Shown in pieces: positions 14,132 to 45,447 of a stretch of 47,780 bases of DNA; position 1 is the first letter of the stretch, and each line of letters opens with the position of its first letter. The stretch comes from Clostridia bacterium (lineage in GTDB: Bacteria > Bacillota > Clostridia > Oscillospirales > Acutalibacteraceae). Location: positions 1-47,780 of the forward strand of contig JAFRXY010000007.1 of NCBI GenBank assembly GCA_017441385.1, written 5' to 3'. The notes under the pieces were generated by a model, which was not told the DNA's origin, did no database searches, and saw nothing but the letters and a program-made list of their open reading frames with translations. The translations under genes were made by a program, and so were the position numbers.

Positions 14132-15565
14132 TTATCTCAGCTTTTCGATTTCCTGCACAAGAAGTTCCCTGATCACAGCGGGATCCCCCTTGCCTTTGAG
14201 CACCTTCATGCAGCCGCCGAAGAGGGATTGCAGCGCCTTCTCCTTGCCGCCGAGGTAATCGCCGACAGCTTTCTGATTTTCCGCGAGGACGTTTTTCACG
14301 GTTTCCAGAATCAGCGAATCGTCCACCTTCGCGTCGAGCGCCTGCTCCCTGACATACTGCGCGGGATCCACGCCCTTCTCGATCACCGCGCCGAGCACCT
14401 TCTTGCCAACGCCGCGGTTGATCTTGCCCTCGTCCACCAGACCGATGATGTAGGAGAGCGCTTCGGGGGCGATATCCAGCTCGCCGATCACCTTGCCGCC
14501 TCTGCGGAGAATACCCGCGCAGTCGGTGAGGATCCACGCCGCCGTGTCGGTCGGCTTGCGTCCGGAAGCCACCACCGCGTCGAAGATGTCGCAGAGTTTT
14601 CTCTCGGACACCAGCGAGGAAATATCCTGCGCGGAAAGTCCCATTTCGGTGTATTCCGCCGTCTTTTGCTCGATGGTCGCGTGCATGCCGCTCTTGATTT
14701 CGGCCAGCCATTCATCGTCCACCACCACCGGCATGAGATTCGGGTCGGGGAAGTACCGGTAATCGGCGGCCGTTTCCTTATTGCGCATGGCGAAAGTGCG
14801 GTTCTTCATGTCGTCCCAGCGCCTTGTCTCCTGCACCAGCACCTCGGTGCGACGTTCCAGCGCGTCGGTGTGACGCGCCACCTCATATTTGATAGCCCGT
14901 TCAATGGAAGCCAGCGAGCTCATGTTCTTGATTTCACTGCGCACGCCAAGCTCCTCCGTGCCTTCGGGACGGATGGAGATATTCACGTCGCAGCGCATGG
15001 CGCCTTCTTCACACTCCGAAATGCCGCCGAAGCGCAGCATGGCTTTCAGCTTTTCGAGATAATTCAGCACTTCCTCCGCGCTGCGGAAATCCGGCTTGCT
15101 GACGATCTCAATCAGCGGAACGCTGGTGCGGTTGAAGTCAACGTAGGTCACATCCGCCCAGTCGTCGTGCACCAGCTTGCCGGCGTCCTCCTCCATGTGA
15201 ATCTGCTTGATACCGATGCGGCTGGTGCCGGATTTGGTGGGAACGTCCACATAGCCCTCGGTGCAGATGGGATGGAACCACTGGGTGATCTGATAGGCGC
15301 AGGGAAGGTCGGGATAGTAGTAGCTCTTTTTGTCAAAGGTCGCGTATTGATTGATCTTGCAGTTGAGCATGATGCCGGCCTGCACCGCCAGTTCCACCGC
15401 GTGCCGGTTGGTGACGGGAAGCATACCCGGCATGCCGCAGCAGGCGGGACACACGCAGTCGTTGGGCTGATCGGCTTCGGAATGGCCGCCGCAGGCGCAG
15501 AATATTTTGGATTTGGTGGAAAGCTCCACATGCGTTTCCAGCCCCATTACCACTTCATATTTCAT
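14132..15565 (-). CDS. gatB: Asp-tRNA(Asn)/Glu-tRNA(Gln) amidotransferase subunit B
   Basis: The kinase and tRNA-binding subunit of GatCAB: it phosphorylates the side-chain carboxylate of mischarged Asp-tRNA(Asn) or Glu-tRNA(Gln) and completes amidation with ammonia. The protein has 477 residues, the normal size. Visible features are MGLETHVELSTKSKIFC (Mg-site His), the zinc-type cysteines FCAC...CVCPACCG, IHMEEDAGKLVHDD, VDFNRTSVPLIEIVSKPD, YRYFPDPNLMPV, and the C-terminal YqeY-like tail domain. All key parts look intact, in contrast with the gatA homologue next to it. Its ATG overlaps the gatA stop by one base (TGATG), with AAGGAG upstream, suggesting translational coupling. It is the last gene of the aspS-gatC-gatA-gatB operon. 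Confidence 0.96.
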   Translation of the reverse strand: MKYEVVMGLETHVELSTKSKIFCACGGHSEADQPNDCVCPACCGMPGMLPVTNRHAVELAVQAGIMLNCKINQYATFDKKSYYYPDLPCAYQITQWFHPICTEGYVDVPTKSGTSRIGIKQIHMEEDAGKLVHDDWADVTYVDFNRTSVPLIEIVSKPDFRSAEEVLNYLEKLKAMLRFGGISECEEGAMRCDVNISIRPEGTEELGVRSEIKNMSSLASIERAIKYEVARHTDALERRTEVLVQETRRWDDMKNRTFAMRNKETAADYRYFPDPNLMPVVVDDEWLAEIKSGMHATIEQKTAEYTEMGLSAQDISSLVSERKLCDIFDAVVASGRKPTDTAAWILTDCAGILRRGGKVIGELDIAPEALSYIIGLVDEGKINRGVGKKVLGAVIEKGVDPAQYVREQALDAKVDDSLILETVKNVLAENQKAVGDYLGGKEKALQSLFGGCMKVLKGKGDPAVIRELLVQEIEKLR

Positions 15566-16758
15566 CAGTCCGCACTCCTTTCCACCGCTCCGGCAATGCT
15601 GAGCAGGGTGCTTTCCCCGAAGGCGGCAGTCCAGAGCTGCACGCCGCCCGTTACCATGGCGGGAATGCCGGTCAGGTTGGGAATTGTCGTAAAGAGCAGC
15701 TCTTTCTCGGTTCTTTCAAAAGTCTCCGCGAGGTCGTATTCCCCAACGGACGCGAAGCTCATGGCGGGGCAGAGCACCGCGTCAAAGGAAGCAAAGACCT
15801 CCTTCATCTTCTCGGAAGCAAGTCTGCGGATACGCAGCGATTTATCGTAGCAAATCATATACTGATTCTTGGAAAGCACAAATGAACCGTAAAGCACGTT
15901 CATCTTGGCGGTGAAACCCATGCCCTCCGTGCGGGAATTGACATACAGCTCGTCGATGTCCTTGTAGGTCGGCGTGCGGTAGCCGAACTTCACGCCGTCG
16001 TAGCGGGAAATGTTATTGCATGTCTCGGCGGACAGCATGATCTGCCACGCGGTCGCGTAGGCTTTTACGTCGGGAAGGGAAATTTCTTCGACGGTCGCAC
16101 CGGCTTTTTGCAGCTTGGCGGCATATGCGTCGATTGCCGCCTTCACGGATTCTTCCGCCGCGTCGTACAGCTCCTTCACAAGGGCGATCTTCATGCCGGC
16201 GATGTCCTTGTCGGTGGCATACTCGTATTTCTCCGACGGAAGGCTGGTGCCGTCCTTTGCATCGTGTCCGGCGATGGCGGAGAGCAATTCCTTCACACCT
16301 TCCGCGTCTGCGGCGCAGACGCCCACCTGTTCGCCGGAACAGGCGGTGGGAATAATGCCGTACCGGGACACCGTGCCGTAGGTGGGTTTCAGGAAGTCCA
16401 CACCCGAAAGGGCCGCGCCCCTTCTAGGAGCGCCGTTCATATCCACACAGAGCGCCTGCTTCACCGTACCCGAAGCGACGGCTTCGGCGGCGGCGGTGGA
16501 AAGGGTGCCGTCCGTCTTTTGGCAGACGCCGTGATAGGAGGTTTCGCCCGCGAGGTCAAGCCCGAATTCGCCGGTGTGGGTCTTACCCCTGAGCGTGAAG
16601 CCGGCTTTGAGCAGACGTTCCACCGCGTCGGAGCTGAAAAGCGGCACGAATCCGTCCAGAATGTGGGAGCCGGCCTTGGTTTCATACCCCTTTACCAGAA
16701 TCGTATCATCCACCGCGACCGTGCCGGCGGAGTCGATTTCCGTCATAAAATAATTCAT
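15565..16758 (-). CDS. GatA-like amidase homologue lacking the catalytic triad
   Basis: Homologue of the glutaminase subunit GatA of GatCAB, but only 397 residues against about 485, missing the N-terminal ~65. Family landmarks remain: GFVPLFSSDAVERLL, LKPTYGTVSRYG, SLPDVKAYATAWQI, and the ending with TTIPNLTGIPA. The amidase-signature triad is gone. The Lys of the usual IKDN motif is Asp (VAVDDT, about residue 17). The GGSSGGS loop is shortened to DGTLST. The nucleophile Ser of DTGGSIRQPA is Ala (DMNGAPRRGA, about residue 110). The reading frame is intact, so it is not simply decaying. GAGGTG 6 bases before ATG 16758 sets the start, although the frame opens at GTG 16767. It may be a structural or regulatory subunit, with a real GatA elsewhere. 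Confidence 0.85.
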   Translation of the reverse strand: MNYFMTEIDSAGTVAVDDTILVKGYETKAGSHILDGFVPLFSSDAVERLLKAGFTLRGKTHTGEFGLDLAGETSYHGVCQKTDGTLSTAAAEAVASGTVKQALCVDMNGAPRRGAALSGVDFLKPTYGTVSRYGIIPTACSGEQVGVCAADAEGVKELLSAIAGHDAKDGTSLPSEKYEYATDKDIAGMKIALVKELYDAAEESVKAAIDAYAAKLQKAGATVEEISLPDVKAYATAWQIMLSAETCNNISRYDGVKFGYRTPTYKDIDELYVNSRTEGMGFTAKMNVLYGSFVLSKNQYMICYDKSLRIRRLASEKMKEVFASFDAVLCPAMSFASVGEYDLAETFERTEKELLFTTIPNLTGIPAMVTGGVQLWTAAFGESTLLSIAGAVERSAD

Positions 16759-16768
16759 TTCCGTCACC

Positions 16769-17050
16769 TCACTTCACCAGTCTGGGAACGATCCAGCTGT
16801 CTTCGCTGTGTTCCGGAGCGCCTGCGAGCAGTTCGTCCCTTGTGAATGCCTGCTCGCGCACGTCTTCCCGGAACACGTTGGTCATGGGCATGCAGTGCAC
16901 CATGACATCCGTGTTTTCCGTGTCAATGGCTTGCAGCGCTTCGACTTCCTTTCCCATAAAGCCGAAGACATCCATTGCCTTCTGTTCCTCCGCGTCGGTG
17001 AGTCTGAATTCATTCAGGCTCTCCAGAGCCTTCAGAGTTTCAACCGTCAT
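16769..17050 (-). CDS. gatC: Asp-tRNA(Asn)/Glu-tRNA(Gln) amidotransferase subunit C
   Basis: Small linker subunit (93 residues) that wraps around GatA and GatB and holds the complex together. The short, mostly helical N-terminal half (LTDAEEQKAMDVFGFMGKEV) and the extended tail ending FTRDELLAGAPEHSEDSWIV then PRLVK are typical of GatC. ATG 17050 has AAAGGGGAT in front; the frame extends seven codons further up but without a ribosome site. It lies 27 bases after aspS and 10 bases before gatA. The family has low sequence conservation, so position in the operon adds much to the call. Confidence 0.9.
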   Translation of the reverse strand: MTVETLKALESLNEFRLTDAEEQKAMDVFGFMGKEVEALQAIDTENTDVMVHCMPMTNVFREDVREQAFTRDELLAGAPEHSEDSWIVPRLVK

Positions 17051-17077: not shown

Positions 17078-18808
17078 TTATTCTCTGATGCTGATATTGG
17101 CTTCCAGAAGCTGCTGCTCCGTGACCTCGCTGGGCGCGCCGAGAAGCAGATCCTGCGCGTTGCCGTTGAGCGGGAAGGCGATAACGTCCCGGATGGAGTC
17201 CTCGCCGGCCAGCAGCATGACGATTCTGTCCACGCCGGGGGCCATTCCGGCATGCGGCGGCGCACCGTACTGGAAGGCGGTATAAAGGGCGCTGAAACGC
17301 TTCTCCAGCTCTTCTTCGGAATAGCCGGCGATTTCAAACGCCTTGCGCATGACATCGATATCGTGGTTTCTCACCGCGCCGGAGGCAAGCTCGATGCCGT
17401 TGCACACCAGGTCGTACTGATAGGCCAGCACTTCGGTGGGGTCTTGGTTTTCAAGGGCAAGCAGTCCGCCCTGCGGCATGGAGAAGGGATTGTGGGTAAA
17501 GATTGTGTTGCCGGTGCTTTCGTCGATTTCGTACATCGGGAAGTCCACAATGAAACAGAATTCATAGGAATCCTGATCAATGATGCCGAGATTCTCGCCC
17601 AGCCATGTTCTGATCTGTCCCGCTTCGCGGTTCACGATGGACTTCGCGTCGCAGATGAAGAAGAGGGTTTCGTTCTCCTTGATGCCGGAGAGGGAAGTGA
17701 TTTCTTCCTTCTGCTCAGGGGAGAGGAATTTCGCGATCGGGCCTTTGAATTCCCCGGCGGTGAGGGTGAGGTAGCCCAGACCCTTCATGCCGATGGAAGT
17801 GGCGAATTTGAGGGAATCCTCAAAGAATTTCCTGCTCTGACCGTGGCAGTCGGCGACAATGCCTCTGACCGGCTTGCCCTTGAAGAGCGGGAAGTCCACC
17901 TTGGCGAAGAAATCGGTCAGGTCAATGATTCTCAGCGGGTTGCGCAGGTCGGGCTTGTCGGTGCCGAACTGCATCATCGCGTCCTTGTAGGTGATAATGT
18001 CAAAGGGCTTGGGGCTGATCTTCTTATCGGAATAGGTGCGGAAGACTTCGTAAATGACGTTCTCGCAGACATCCAGCACTTCCTCCTGTGTGGCAAAGGC
18101 CAATTCAAAGTCGAGCTGGTAGAATTCGCCCGGGCTTCTGTCCTGACGGGCGTCCTCGTCACGGAAACAGGGAGCGATCTGGAAATACCTGTCGAATCCG
18201 GACACCATCAGCAGCTGCTTGAACTGCTGGGGCGCCTGCGGCAGGGCGTAGAATTTGCCCTTGTGCTTCCGGCTGGGAACGAGGAAGTCTCTCGCGCCTT
18301 CGGGAGAAGAAGCGGTGAGAATGGGCGTCTGAATCTCCAGGAAGCCCATTTCCTCCATGCACTTTCTCATTGTGCGGATGATATCGGAGCGGAGCCTGAT
18401 GTTGTGCTGCAGGCGGTCGCTTCTCAGGTCAAGATAACGGTATTTCAGACGGACGTCCTCGCGGGTGCCTCTGGAATCGCTGATGTCAAAGGGCAGCATG
18501 TTTCTGCACTTGCCCAGAAGGGTGAGGGATTCCACCACCAGTTCGACTTTACCGGTGTCCAGCTTTTCGTTGACGGTTTCGGGATCTCTCTCGGAAACGG
18601 TGCCCTGCACCGAAATGACACATTCCCTGTTGACGCCGCTGAGCAGCGTCTCGTCATGAATGACGGTCTGTGTAATGCCGGTGTAATCCCTTAAATCCAC
18701 AAAGATAACGCCGCCGTGGTCACGGATGGTGTCGACCCAGCCGGCAAGCTCTACTTTGGCCCCGATATCCTTCTCGCGGATGTCGTTGCAGTAATGCGTT
18801 CTGTACAT
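17078..18808 (-). CDS. aspS: Aspartyl-tRNA synthetase, probably non-discriminating
   Basis: Bacterial-type AspRS of 576 residues. An N-terminal OB-fold binds the anticodon (ELAGWVDTIRDHGGVIFVDL), class II motif 2 is in RYFQIAPCFRDEDARQDRSP, the GAD insertion follows, and motif 3 is in YGAPPHAGMAPGVDRIVML. His31 in RDHGG is the residue found in non-discriminating bacterial AspRS enzymes, where discriminating forms such as E. coli have Leu. Such enzymes charge both tRNA-Asp and tRNA-Asn, and GatCAB then converts Asp-tRNA(Asn) to Asn-tRNA(Asn). Its place at the head of the gatCAB operon supports this. ATG 18808 has GGAGGA upstream. Expression is controlled by the T-box leader. Confidence 0.93.
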   Translation of the reverse strand: MYRTHYCNDIREKDIGAKVELAGWVDTIRDHGGVIFVDLRDYTGITQTVIHDETLLSGVNRECVISVQGTVSERDPETVNEKLDTGKVELVVESLTLLGKCRNMLPFDISDSRGTREDVRLKYRYLDLRSDRLQHNIRLRSDIIRTMRKCMEEMGFLEIQTPILTASSPEGARDFLVPSRKHKGKFYALPQAPQQFKQLLMVSGFDRYFQIAPCFRDEDARQDRSPGEFYQLDFELAFATQEEVLDVCENVIYEVFRTYSDKKISPKPFDIITYKDAMMQFGTDKPDLRNPLRIIDLTDFFAKVDFPLFKGKPVRGIVADCHGQSRKFFEDSLKFATSIGMKGLGYLTLTAGEFKGPIAKFLSPEQKEEITSLSGIKENETLFFICDAKSIVNREAGQIRTWLGENLGIIDQDSYEFCFIVDFPMYEIDESTGNTIFTHNPFSMPQGGLLALENQDPTEVLAYQYDLVCNGIELASGAVRNHDIDVMRKAFEIAGYSEEELEKRFSALYTAFQYGAPPHAGMAPGVDRIVMLLAGEDSIRDVIAFPLNGNAQDLLLGAPSEVTEQQLLEANISIRE

Positions 18809-18857: not shown

Positions 18858-19118
18858 CAAAAAACCCGTCCCAAGAATCACATAGACTCTTGGGACGGGC
18901 ATTTTTTCGAATTACCCGCGGTGCCACCCAAATTGGCGATGTTTCAATACGCCCGCTTTGAAATATGCAACTGTGGCTTACGGAAAAGCGTTCCCACGCT
19001 TACTACTCACCCGAATGCACTTTCAGTCCGTGATGCATACTCCCTGTCGGGTTTTCCAAAAAAGCGGAGTCTTTTCCGGCCCCGGAAGGGGAAATGCCCG
19101 ATTCCGGGAAAAAGCTCA
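18858..19118 (-). promoter_or_regulatory. T-box riboswitch of the aspS operon with intrinsic terminator
   Basis: Read on the minus strand, the leader carries the T-box core GGGTGGCACCGCGG (18917-18930), then a terminator with 12-base arms CCCGTCCCAAGA/TCTTGGGACGGG (18865-18899) and TTTTTT. The TGGC of the core pairs with GCCA of a tRNA 3' end, that is, discriminator base G73, as in tRNA-Asp and tRNA-Asn. Upstream lie GAGTAG, a hairpin AAGCG/CGCTT, and stem-forming segments expected for stem I. Low charging should favour antitermination. I could not place the specifier codon with certainty (GAC or AAC expected). Confidence 0.92.
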
Positions 19119-19124
19119 GATTAA

Positions 19125-19153
19125 ATTATGGCACACTCCGCGCGAAATGTCAA
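19125..19153 (-). promoter_or_regulatory. Promoter of the aspS operon
   Basis: Minus strand: -35 TTGACA (19148-19153), 17-base spacer, -10 CATAAT (19125-19130). Transcription would start near 19118, at the head of the T-box leader. Confidence 0.85.
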
Positions 19154-28492: not shown

Positions 28493-28517
28493 AAAAAGAA
28501 ACCTGTTCAAAAAAATC

Positions 28518-28546
28518 TTGTATTTCTCAAATAGGTGTGCTATAAT
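28518..28546 (+). promoter_or_regulatory. Promoter of the cobalamin uptake operon
   Basis: Plus strand: -35 TTGTAT (28518-28523), 17-base spacer, -10 TATAAT (28541-28546), giving a transcript that starts just before the riboswitch. Confidence 0.8.
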
Positions 28547-28552
28547 ACCAGA

Positions 28553-28760
28553 GTCATTCGGGGAAACAGGTGCAAATCCTGTACGAGCCCGTCGCCGTGA
28601 GGTGCGAACACAAGGTTTATTTTCTTATCCGACGCCGCAATCGGAGAAAAGCCATTGGAACGGAGCTTCCGTTCTGAGAAGGCGGAAATAAACGCATCGA
28701 GTCGAAATATCCGTCTGACAGAAATTCCCGGTAGAGGCCGCGGCAGCCGGCTTCGGGAAT
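28553..28760 (+). promoter_or_regulatory. Cobalamin riboswitch
   Basis: The cobalamin core is recognisable: GGGGAAACAGGTGCAAATCC, then GAGCCCGTCGCCGTGAGG, and further on GAGAAAAGCC. Past the aptamer a hairpin with ATTCCCG/CGGGAAT arms (28723-28760 region) is followed by A+T-rich sequence without a long T-run. Control may therefore act on translation of the lipoprotein gene (AGGAG at about 28773) rather than by termination. The downstream genes for a transcobalamin-like protein and an ECF component fit the ligand. The 3' boundary is approximate. Confidence 0.85.
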
Positions 28761-45240: not shown

Positions 45241-45271
45241 CTACTTAAAGACGATAAAAATAAAAAATTCT

Positions 45272-45447
45272 GATAGAGGTGCGGCATTCAAAAGAGTATC
45301 ACCGACCGAGGCAGCCATTGCCGTCGGCAGGCCGGTGGGAAAGGTTGTGCCGCCGAAGGGCTTGTCCGTATGGCAGGGCATGCGCCTGGGTGTGCGGTCA
45401 ACAGCCGTACAACTGTCATCATGCGTGATGGAGTGCTACTCAGATAA
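45272..45447 (+). promoter_or_regulatory. Lysine riboswitch (L box)
   Basis: The L-box core is recognisable: GATAGAGGTGCGG, AAAGAGTATCACC, GAAAGGTTGTGCCGCCGAAG, CTGGGTGTGCGG, CATCATGCGTGATGG, and GGAGTGCTACT, which closes the five-helix aptamer. The terminator at 45521 follows. It controls asd and dapA, the first steps committed to lysine and diaminopimelate, so excess lysine would stop transcription. Confidence 0.95.

Follow-up and report, generated by a model that had tools for sequence, protein, structure and literature searches.

We analyzed a stretch of 47,780 nucleotides (positions 1 to 47,780 of contig JAFRXY010000007.1, hereafter the window) from the genome of a Clostridia bacterium of the family Acutalibacteraceae (GCA_017441385.1; completeness 98.75%). 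On its minus strand, a T-box leader is followed by aspS-gatC-gatA-gatB, in which the gatA frame encodes a homologue of the ammonia-releasing subunit GatA without its catalytic triad; we named this protein GatA*. We propose, with a probability of about 0.7, that the operon encodes a dedicated AspRS-GatCA*B asparagine (Asn) transamidosome whose ammonia does not come from GatA and is probably free ammonia. The subunit that would release ammonia is apparently dead, so the ammonia would have to come from elsewhere. Many uncultured Clostridia of the gut and rumen appear to make Asn for translation through a complex with such a conserved, catalytically dead GatA. At the sequence level, the proposal is based on the dead GatA*, an intact GatB, the AspRS signature, an Asn-type T-box, the AspRS-GatC fusion in most relatives, and no other visible route to Asn-tRNA. 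From these we infer that the complex assembles, that it is active, and that its ammonia is free rather than delivered.

GatA* and its conservation among relatives

The sequence-only reading of this DNA had described gatA* (15565..16758, minus strand) as an intact frame between gatC and gatB, and it is one: the frame ends at 15565, where gatB begins, and gatC extends to 16769. Translation may start at 16767 (GTG) or 16758 (ATG). The catalytic losses described earlier were all found again when GatA* was compared with the complete GatA of the same genome (L001). The catalytic Lys is replaced by Asp (VAVDD versus MGIKD), the loop VPGGSSGGSAAAVA of L001 is shortened to TDGTLSTAAAEAVA, with six residues missing immediately before it, and the nucleophile Ser is replaced by Ala (DMNGAPRR versus DTGGSIRQ). 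Alignment to Staphylococcus aureus GatA gave the same losses. GatA* further lacks the Arg of the glutamine site and a C-terminal loop. The absence of about 65 N-terminal residues, claimed by the same reading, needs revision. The N-terminus is indeed shortened, but because residue 1 of the model pairs with S. aureus residue 40 in the fold alignment, the loss is better described as about 39 N-terminal and about 20 internal residues. GatA* keeps the amidase-signature fold and homology to GatA, and scores 254.1 bits with TIGR00132 (GatA), below the curated cut-off of 481.1.

We then asked how general these losses are, and whether the triad is retained at shifted positions. In 98 distinct GatA* sequences (after removal of frames shorter than 290 aa, of duplicates with identical cores, and of several repeat loci), the Lys, the cis-Ser, and the glutamine-site Arg (S. 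aureus 358) are kept at their aligned positions in none. The Lys column holds Asp in 95, Glu in 2, and a gap in 1. The nucleophile Ser (Ser178), absent from the GatA* of the window, is present in 15. Canonical GatA keeps all four residues, whose roles we take to be those generally assigned to them in GatA, in 26 of 26 sequences. As judged by these alignments, GatA* is confirmed as a GatA fold without the Lys-Ser-Ser triad. Among the open-access papers listed by our literature searches, none describes a GatA without the triad in its title or the opening of its abstract; subscription literature lies mostly outside this scope.

GatA*-like genes are set apart from canonical GatA among 60 related genomes. 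In a sample of 395 genomes, drawn evenly across the order that includes the window's with a requested completeness of at least 90%, at least 13, that of the window included, carry GatA* (fragments could be missed), with scores of at least 367 bits versus at most 276 for canonical GatA. For comparison of loci, the best 80 of 200 were kept from a scan of bacterial genomes; their source titles all name uncultured Clostridia or their families, with a ruminant gut site in 57. The 98 GatA* form one clade, with a local support of 0.70. The ratio of nonsynonymous to synonymous substitution rates (dN/dS), from a comparison with 16 pairs listed, is 0.069-0.119 for gatA* in six pairs, for which gatB gives 0.029-0.079. 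A pseudogene or a sequencing error in the window is ruled out by the conserved clade together with the dN/dS of gatA*. GatA* also has columns of its own, in which canonical GatA differs: Asp79 (95/98), Asp130 and Arg181 (98/98 each), Glu211 (96/98), and Trp309 (97/98).

GatB has fared differently. Of the columns invariant in the canonical proteins, GatB* retains 73 of 88 (97 sequences; the truncated L035 was dropped and L140 set aside), including the G-L-E-x-H and H-x-E-E-D-A-G-K motifs, versus 40 of 116 in GatA*. The active site of GatA was therefore lost, and that of GatB was held. In the window, gatB2 (14132..15565, minus strand) has intact catalytic and YqeY domains (NCBIfam gatB, 498 bits; Pfam GatB_N and GatB_Yqey) with its active-site columns kept.

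Other degenerate GatA forms of 302-447 aa occur at five loci (L163, L164, L165, L166, and L120). Four of the five adjoin aspS and four lack the catalytic Lys, and they possibly represent separate losses.

T-box leader and AspRS of the operon

The leader lies at 18888..19077 on the minus strand, with the core GGGTGGCACCGCGGG at 18915-18929 and a terminator hairpin with a T run 3' of it, at about 18859-18899; a microRNA match at the leader proved to be this hairpin itself. A sigma-70-like promoter (TTGACA, 17 bases, CATAAT; 19125..19153, minus strand) can be read 5' of the leader, and TTGACA also precedes most of the aligned leaders shown from relatives. The T-box core stands directly 5' of aspS in the window and in 70 of the 80 loci. 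The match of the window leader to RF00230 is weak (32.2 bits, below the Rfam gathering cut-off of 93), and among the scanned loci (sets of 11 and 20) only L045 reaches the cut-off, with 99.9 bits. RNAalifold on 20 leaders gave 39 pairs, 25 of them changed on both sides. Within stem I, G-A-A-C-R is unpaired opposite two bases, which is the expected place of the specifier, and AAC is invariant in these 20 leaders. A wider set of 71 leaders showed AAC in 62 by pattern and in 8 of the remaining 9 by eye, L084 being the exception. The core UGGC matches a G73-CCA end, as in the tRNA-Asn genes found. Since AAC is an Asn codon and UGGC fits this end, the operon is most likely regulated by tRNA-Asn charging. 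A role of the operon in Gln-tRNA synthesis is disfavored, because GlnRS is widespread (47 of 50 genomes, see below) and the leader specifies Asn. The second GatCAB operon of Clostridium acetobutylicum is likewise under T-box control. Elsewhere in the window, two riboswitches were observed on the plus strand, a cobalamin one at 28512-28732 and a lysine one at 45266-45446.

The first gene, aspS2 (17078..18808, minus strand), encodes a bacterial-type AspRS (NCBIfam aspS_bact, 628 bits) with His in the RDHGG motif of the anticodon domain. In this column, Escherichia coli AspRS has Leu and that of Mycobacterium tuberculosis has His; we take it to matter for specificity, the former enzyme being discriminating and the latter non-discriminating. 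We compared 77 operon AspRSs (the window, 72 loci, and 4 that adjoin other shortened GatA forms) with 15 stand-alone AspRSs; frames shorter than 540 aa were excluded, which leaves the archaeal-type gene of L158 out of the stand-alone group. His is present in 75 of 77 operon enzymes (gap in 2) and in none of the stand-alone ones, which have Leu in 10, Lys in 4, and Ile in 1. As a control for the discriminating type, the latter include four enzymes whose genomes encode AsnRS and gave no GatA match (G020, G032, G035, and G043). The two groups fall into separate clades, with support of 0.985 and 1.0.

AspRS and GatC form one frame in 56 of the 75 loci where both were scored. The two genes are separate in the other 19, which include the nearest relatives of the window, and in the window itself, where gatC2 occupies 16769..17050 (minus strand; Pfam GatC, 44 bits). 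The window AspRS scores 465.2 bits with NF009460 (bifunctional AspRS/GatC), below the cut-off of 1379. Since an AspRS-GatC fusion already has an NCBIfam name, fusion as such is not new.

Other routes to Asn-tRNA and the tRNA itself

A complete GatA encoded elsewhere had been offered as one of three explanations of the damaged gene. In the window's genome this is correct: there are two amidase-family genes, gatA* and a complete gatA that is part of a second full gatCAB (C102), besides two bacterial-type AspRS genes (the operon copy and one at C93) and a GlnRS; no AsnRS over the curated cut-off was found in this genome. Because a normal GatCAB is also encoded, it and the GatA* complex may share the work there. 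As a general answer, however, the explanation fails, since GatA* stands alone in most of the genomes surveyed. The earlier interpretation is thus partly supported, with free ammonia or another amidase left as its general options.

GatA, AsnRS, and GlnRS were examined in the genomes of 50 of the 80 loci (completeness not given). A GatA over the TIGR00132 cut-off is present in 18, leaving 32 with GatA* only, and AsnRS over its cut-off is also present in 18. Neither was seen in 19 of the 50, and 18 of these 19 have GlnRS. GlnRS exceeds its cut-off in 47 of 50, the misses being G073 and G101 (fragments) and G096 (none). G096 carries GatA* and shows no complete GatA, AsnRS, or GlnRS; either this genome is incomplete, or GatCA*B is used for Gln as well.

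In a second set of 20 genomes with known completeness, 13 at 90% or above carry GatA*, and 11 of these show no complete GatA. Neither a complete GatA nor an AsnRS was found in ten of them, from four families (G232, G439, G216, G136, G208, G165, G466, G323, G196, and G473), and gatA* is uninterrupted in nine of the ten. The remaining three are G482, with AsnRS and no complete GatA, G018, with a complete GatA, and G046, whose complete GatA is apparently split over two contigs. Of the genomes below 90% completeness, G031 shows both a complete GatA and AsnRS, and three (G027, G059, and G047) show neither; G041, G038, and G030, which carry other shortened GatA forms, were left out of the counts. 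By matching places, some genomes of the 80 loci also occur among the 60 related genomes (G060 = G015, G061 = G007, and G064 = G018). The ten and the nineteen genomes do not overlap; identity to the window's GatA* is 40-49% in the ten and at least 55% in the 50-genome set. In these ten and nineteen genomes, the GatA* complex would be the only visible route to Asn-tRNA.

A canonical gatCAB lies near the GatA* operon, within the same locus, in L044, L045, L049, L057, L060, L068, and L103. Genus-mates of the window that lack GatA* (G003, G004, G008, G010, G013, G016, and G017) have an asnS match of about 200 bits near canonical gatA, perhaps an archaeal-type AspRS.

According to PMC4206432 and PMC9976931, ordinary bacterial GatCAB requires U1-A72 of tRNA-Asn, and G1-C72 acts as an antideterminant. 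In L044, from a genome with complete GatA and AsnRS (G062), a tRNA-Asn gene directly 5' of the leader has U1-A72. By contrast, G078 (L063:5-80) and G072 (L256:19855-19930), both without visible complete GatA or AsnRS, have tRNA-Asn genes with G1-C72; the two are nearly alike, only parts of these genomes were covered, and further tRNA-Asn genes may exist. No tRNA-Asn was found in the window or the sampled parts of its genome, nor by ARAGORN in parts of G136 and G439. The two G1-C72 genes suggest that recognition no longer depends on U1-A72 where GatCA*B works alone.

Ammonia source, alternatives and known systems

A diverged asparaginase/GatD-like gene, encoding a protein of about 340-380 aa, occurs in 21 of the 80 loci, in operon flanks covered for up to 6 kb on each side (L104, L111, L113, L102, L116, L091, L096, L044, L045, L049, L057, L060, L068, L103, L110, L073, L087, L066, L054, L099, and L052). 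It lies directly 3' of the operon's gatB in nine, and both orientations occur. No such gene was found in the window or in the flanks of the other 59 loci, L082 having fragments. Scans of four of these proteins gave matches to type I asparaginase and to archaeal GatD in each case, the former scoring better in three and the latter in one, all far below the NCBIfam cut-offs; the Pfam Asparaginase domain was recognized in both of the two tested. In the alignment, what we take to be the catalytic Lys motif of asparaginase seems to have lost its Lys. At 18 loci, a gene for an AlaX-like alanyl-tRNA editing protein lies 3' of gatB on the same strand (e.g., L108:8748-9956, the one scanned, and L081:5364-6611).

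In the mechanism we propose, uncharged tRNA-Asn would bind the T-box leader, and AspRS2, GatC, GatA*, and GatB would be made. AspRS2 would load Asp onto tRNA-Asn, and GatB would activate the Asp side chain by phosphorylation with ATP and amidate it to Asn. GatA*, without glutamine hydrolysis, would remain the structural half of GatCAB and might also serve as an ammonia inlet, with ammonia entering from solution and not via another protein. Ammonia is plentiful in the ruminant gut, and free ammonia is favored over ammonia from another amidase. The enzyme family offers a precedent for ammonia use: truncation of yeast GatFAB abolished its glutaminase and conferred transamidation with NH4Cl (PMC4027206).

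Several points weigh against this proposal. The asparaginase-like neighbors allow another ammonia donor, and the complete GatCAB of the window's genome could do the work there. With AsnRS in 18 of the 50 genomes, the operon is not always the sole route. Among the ten genomes, G196 (L133) has an in-frame TAG in gatA*, near codon 38 of the aligned part, and three (G216, G165, and G473) are among those that keep Ser178. Among the papers covered, none was found that gives the AspRS His the meaning assumed here. The G1-C72 tRNA-Asn of two genomes is unlike the substrate of ordinary GatCAB; either the rules of the complex have changed or the assignment is wrong. Finally, nearly all the genomes are metagenome-assembled and an absence can be a gap, which ten genomes in four families make unlikely.

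The alternatives differ in what they make of GatA* and of the ammonia. The asparaginase-like neighbor or another amidase might dock on GatCA*B and deliver ammonia, as GatD does for GatE in archaea; its position beside the operon, in nine loci directly after gatB, and its matches to asparaginase and GatD speak for such a donor, but its absence from the window and most loci, the low scores, and the apparently missing Lys make this unlikely. It is also rather improbable that GatA* is a mere scaffold or regulator, with the complete GatA of another locus replacing it or feeding the complex: the window's genome and 18 of the 50 encode a complete GatA, but lineages with GatA* alone contradict it. The residues specific to GatA*, together with the old Asp80, could in principle form a rebuilt glutaminase site. 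However, no set like a known amidase triad was identified among them, and with the glutamine-site Arg and C-terminal loop lost we consider this very unlikely. Hardly credible is a functionless, decaying duplicate. The lost catalytic residues and N-terminus and the TAG of G196 would fit it, but it is already contradicted by strong purifying selection, the 98-member clade with its invariant new residues, and genomes without another visible route, as well as by the T-box control.

Beyond the free-ammonia transamidosome, we tentatively put forward a broader scheme, doubtful as a whole, in which a gut Clostridia clade uses a glutaminase-free AspRS-GatC/GatA*/GatB. Here the choice of tRNA would have shifted from the U1-A72 rule of GatB to the fused AspRS2, with G1-C72 allowed, and ammonia would be free or come from the operon-linked asparaginase-like donor; the system would then be what archaeal GatDE is in archaea, in a bacterial form.

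In textbooks, GatCAB exemplifies how glutamine hydrolysis is coupled to amidation through an ammonia channel. If our proposal is true, a natural, conserved, and apparently indispensable GatCAB without glutaminase separates the two halves and reveals the non-hydrolytic role of GatA; it would also exemplify a translation enzyme adapting to ammonia-rich habitats. If tRNA-Asn has truly lost U1-A72 where GatCA*B acts alone, the way in which the indirect Asn pathway recognizes its tRNA has been rewired. A parallel is found in mammalian carbamoyl phosphate synthetase I, which keeps a dead glutaminase part and uses free ammonia, although its fold and reaction are unrelated to GatCA*B. In archaeal GatDE, a GatB-family subunit is supplied by a donor outside the amidase-signature family; unlike here, it acts on tRNA-Gln, and the window has no GatD-like gene. 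With the bacterial GatCAB of S. aureus (2df4) and Aquifex aeolicus (3h0l), the system has in common GatB, GatC, and a GatA of the same overall fold, but not the Lys-Ser-Ser triad, the roughly 39 N-terminal residues, or the glutamine-site Arg. As in the Asn-transamidosomes of Pseudomonas aeruginosa (4wj3) and Thermus thermophilus (3kfu), an AspRS with the non-discriminating-type signature would accompany GatCAB. Unlike in those, the genes form one operon, AspRS and GatC are mostly fused, the glutaminase residues are missing, and two genomes have a G1-C72 tRNA-Asn. The fusion of most relatives joins the same two proteins as NF009460, with separate genes in the window. C. acetobutylicum likewise has extra AspRSs and a second GatCAB (PMC4206432).
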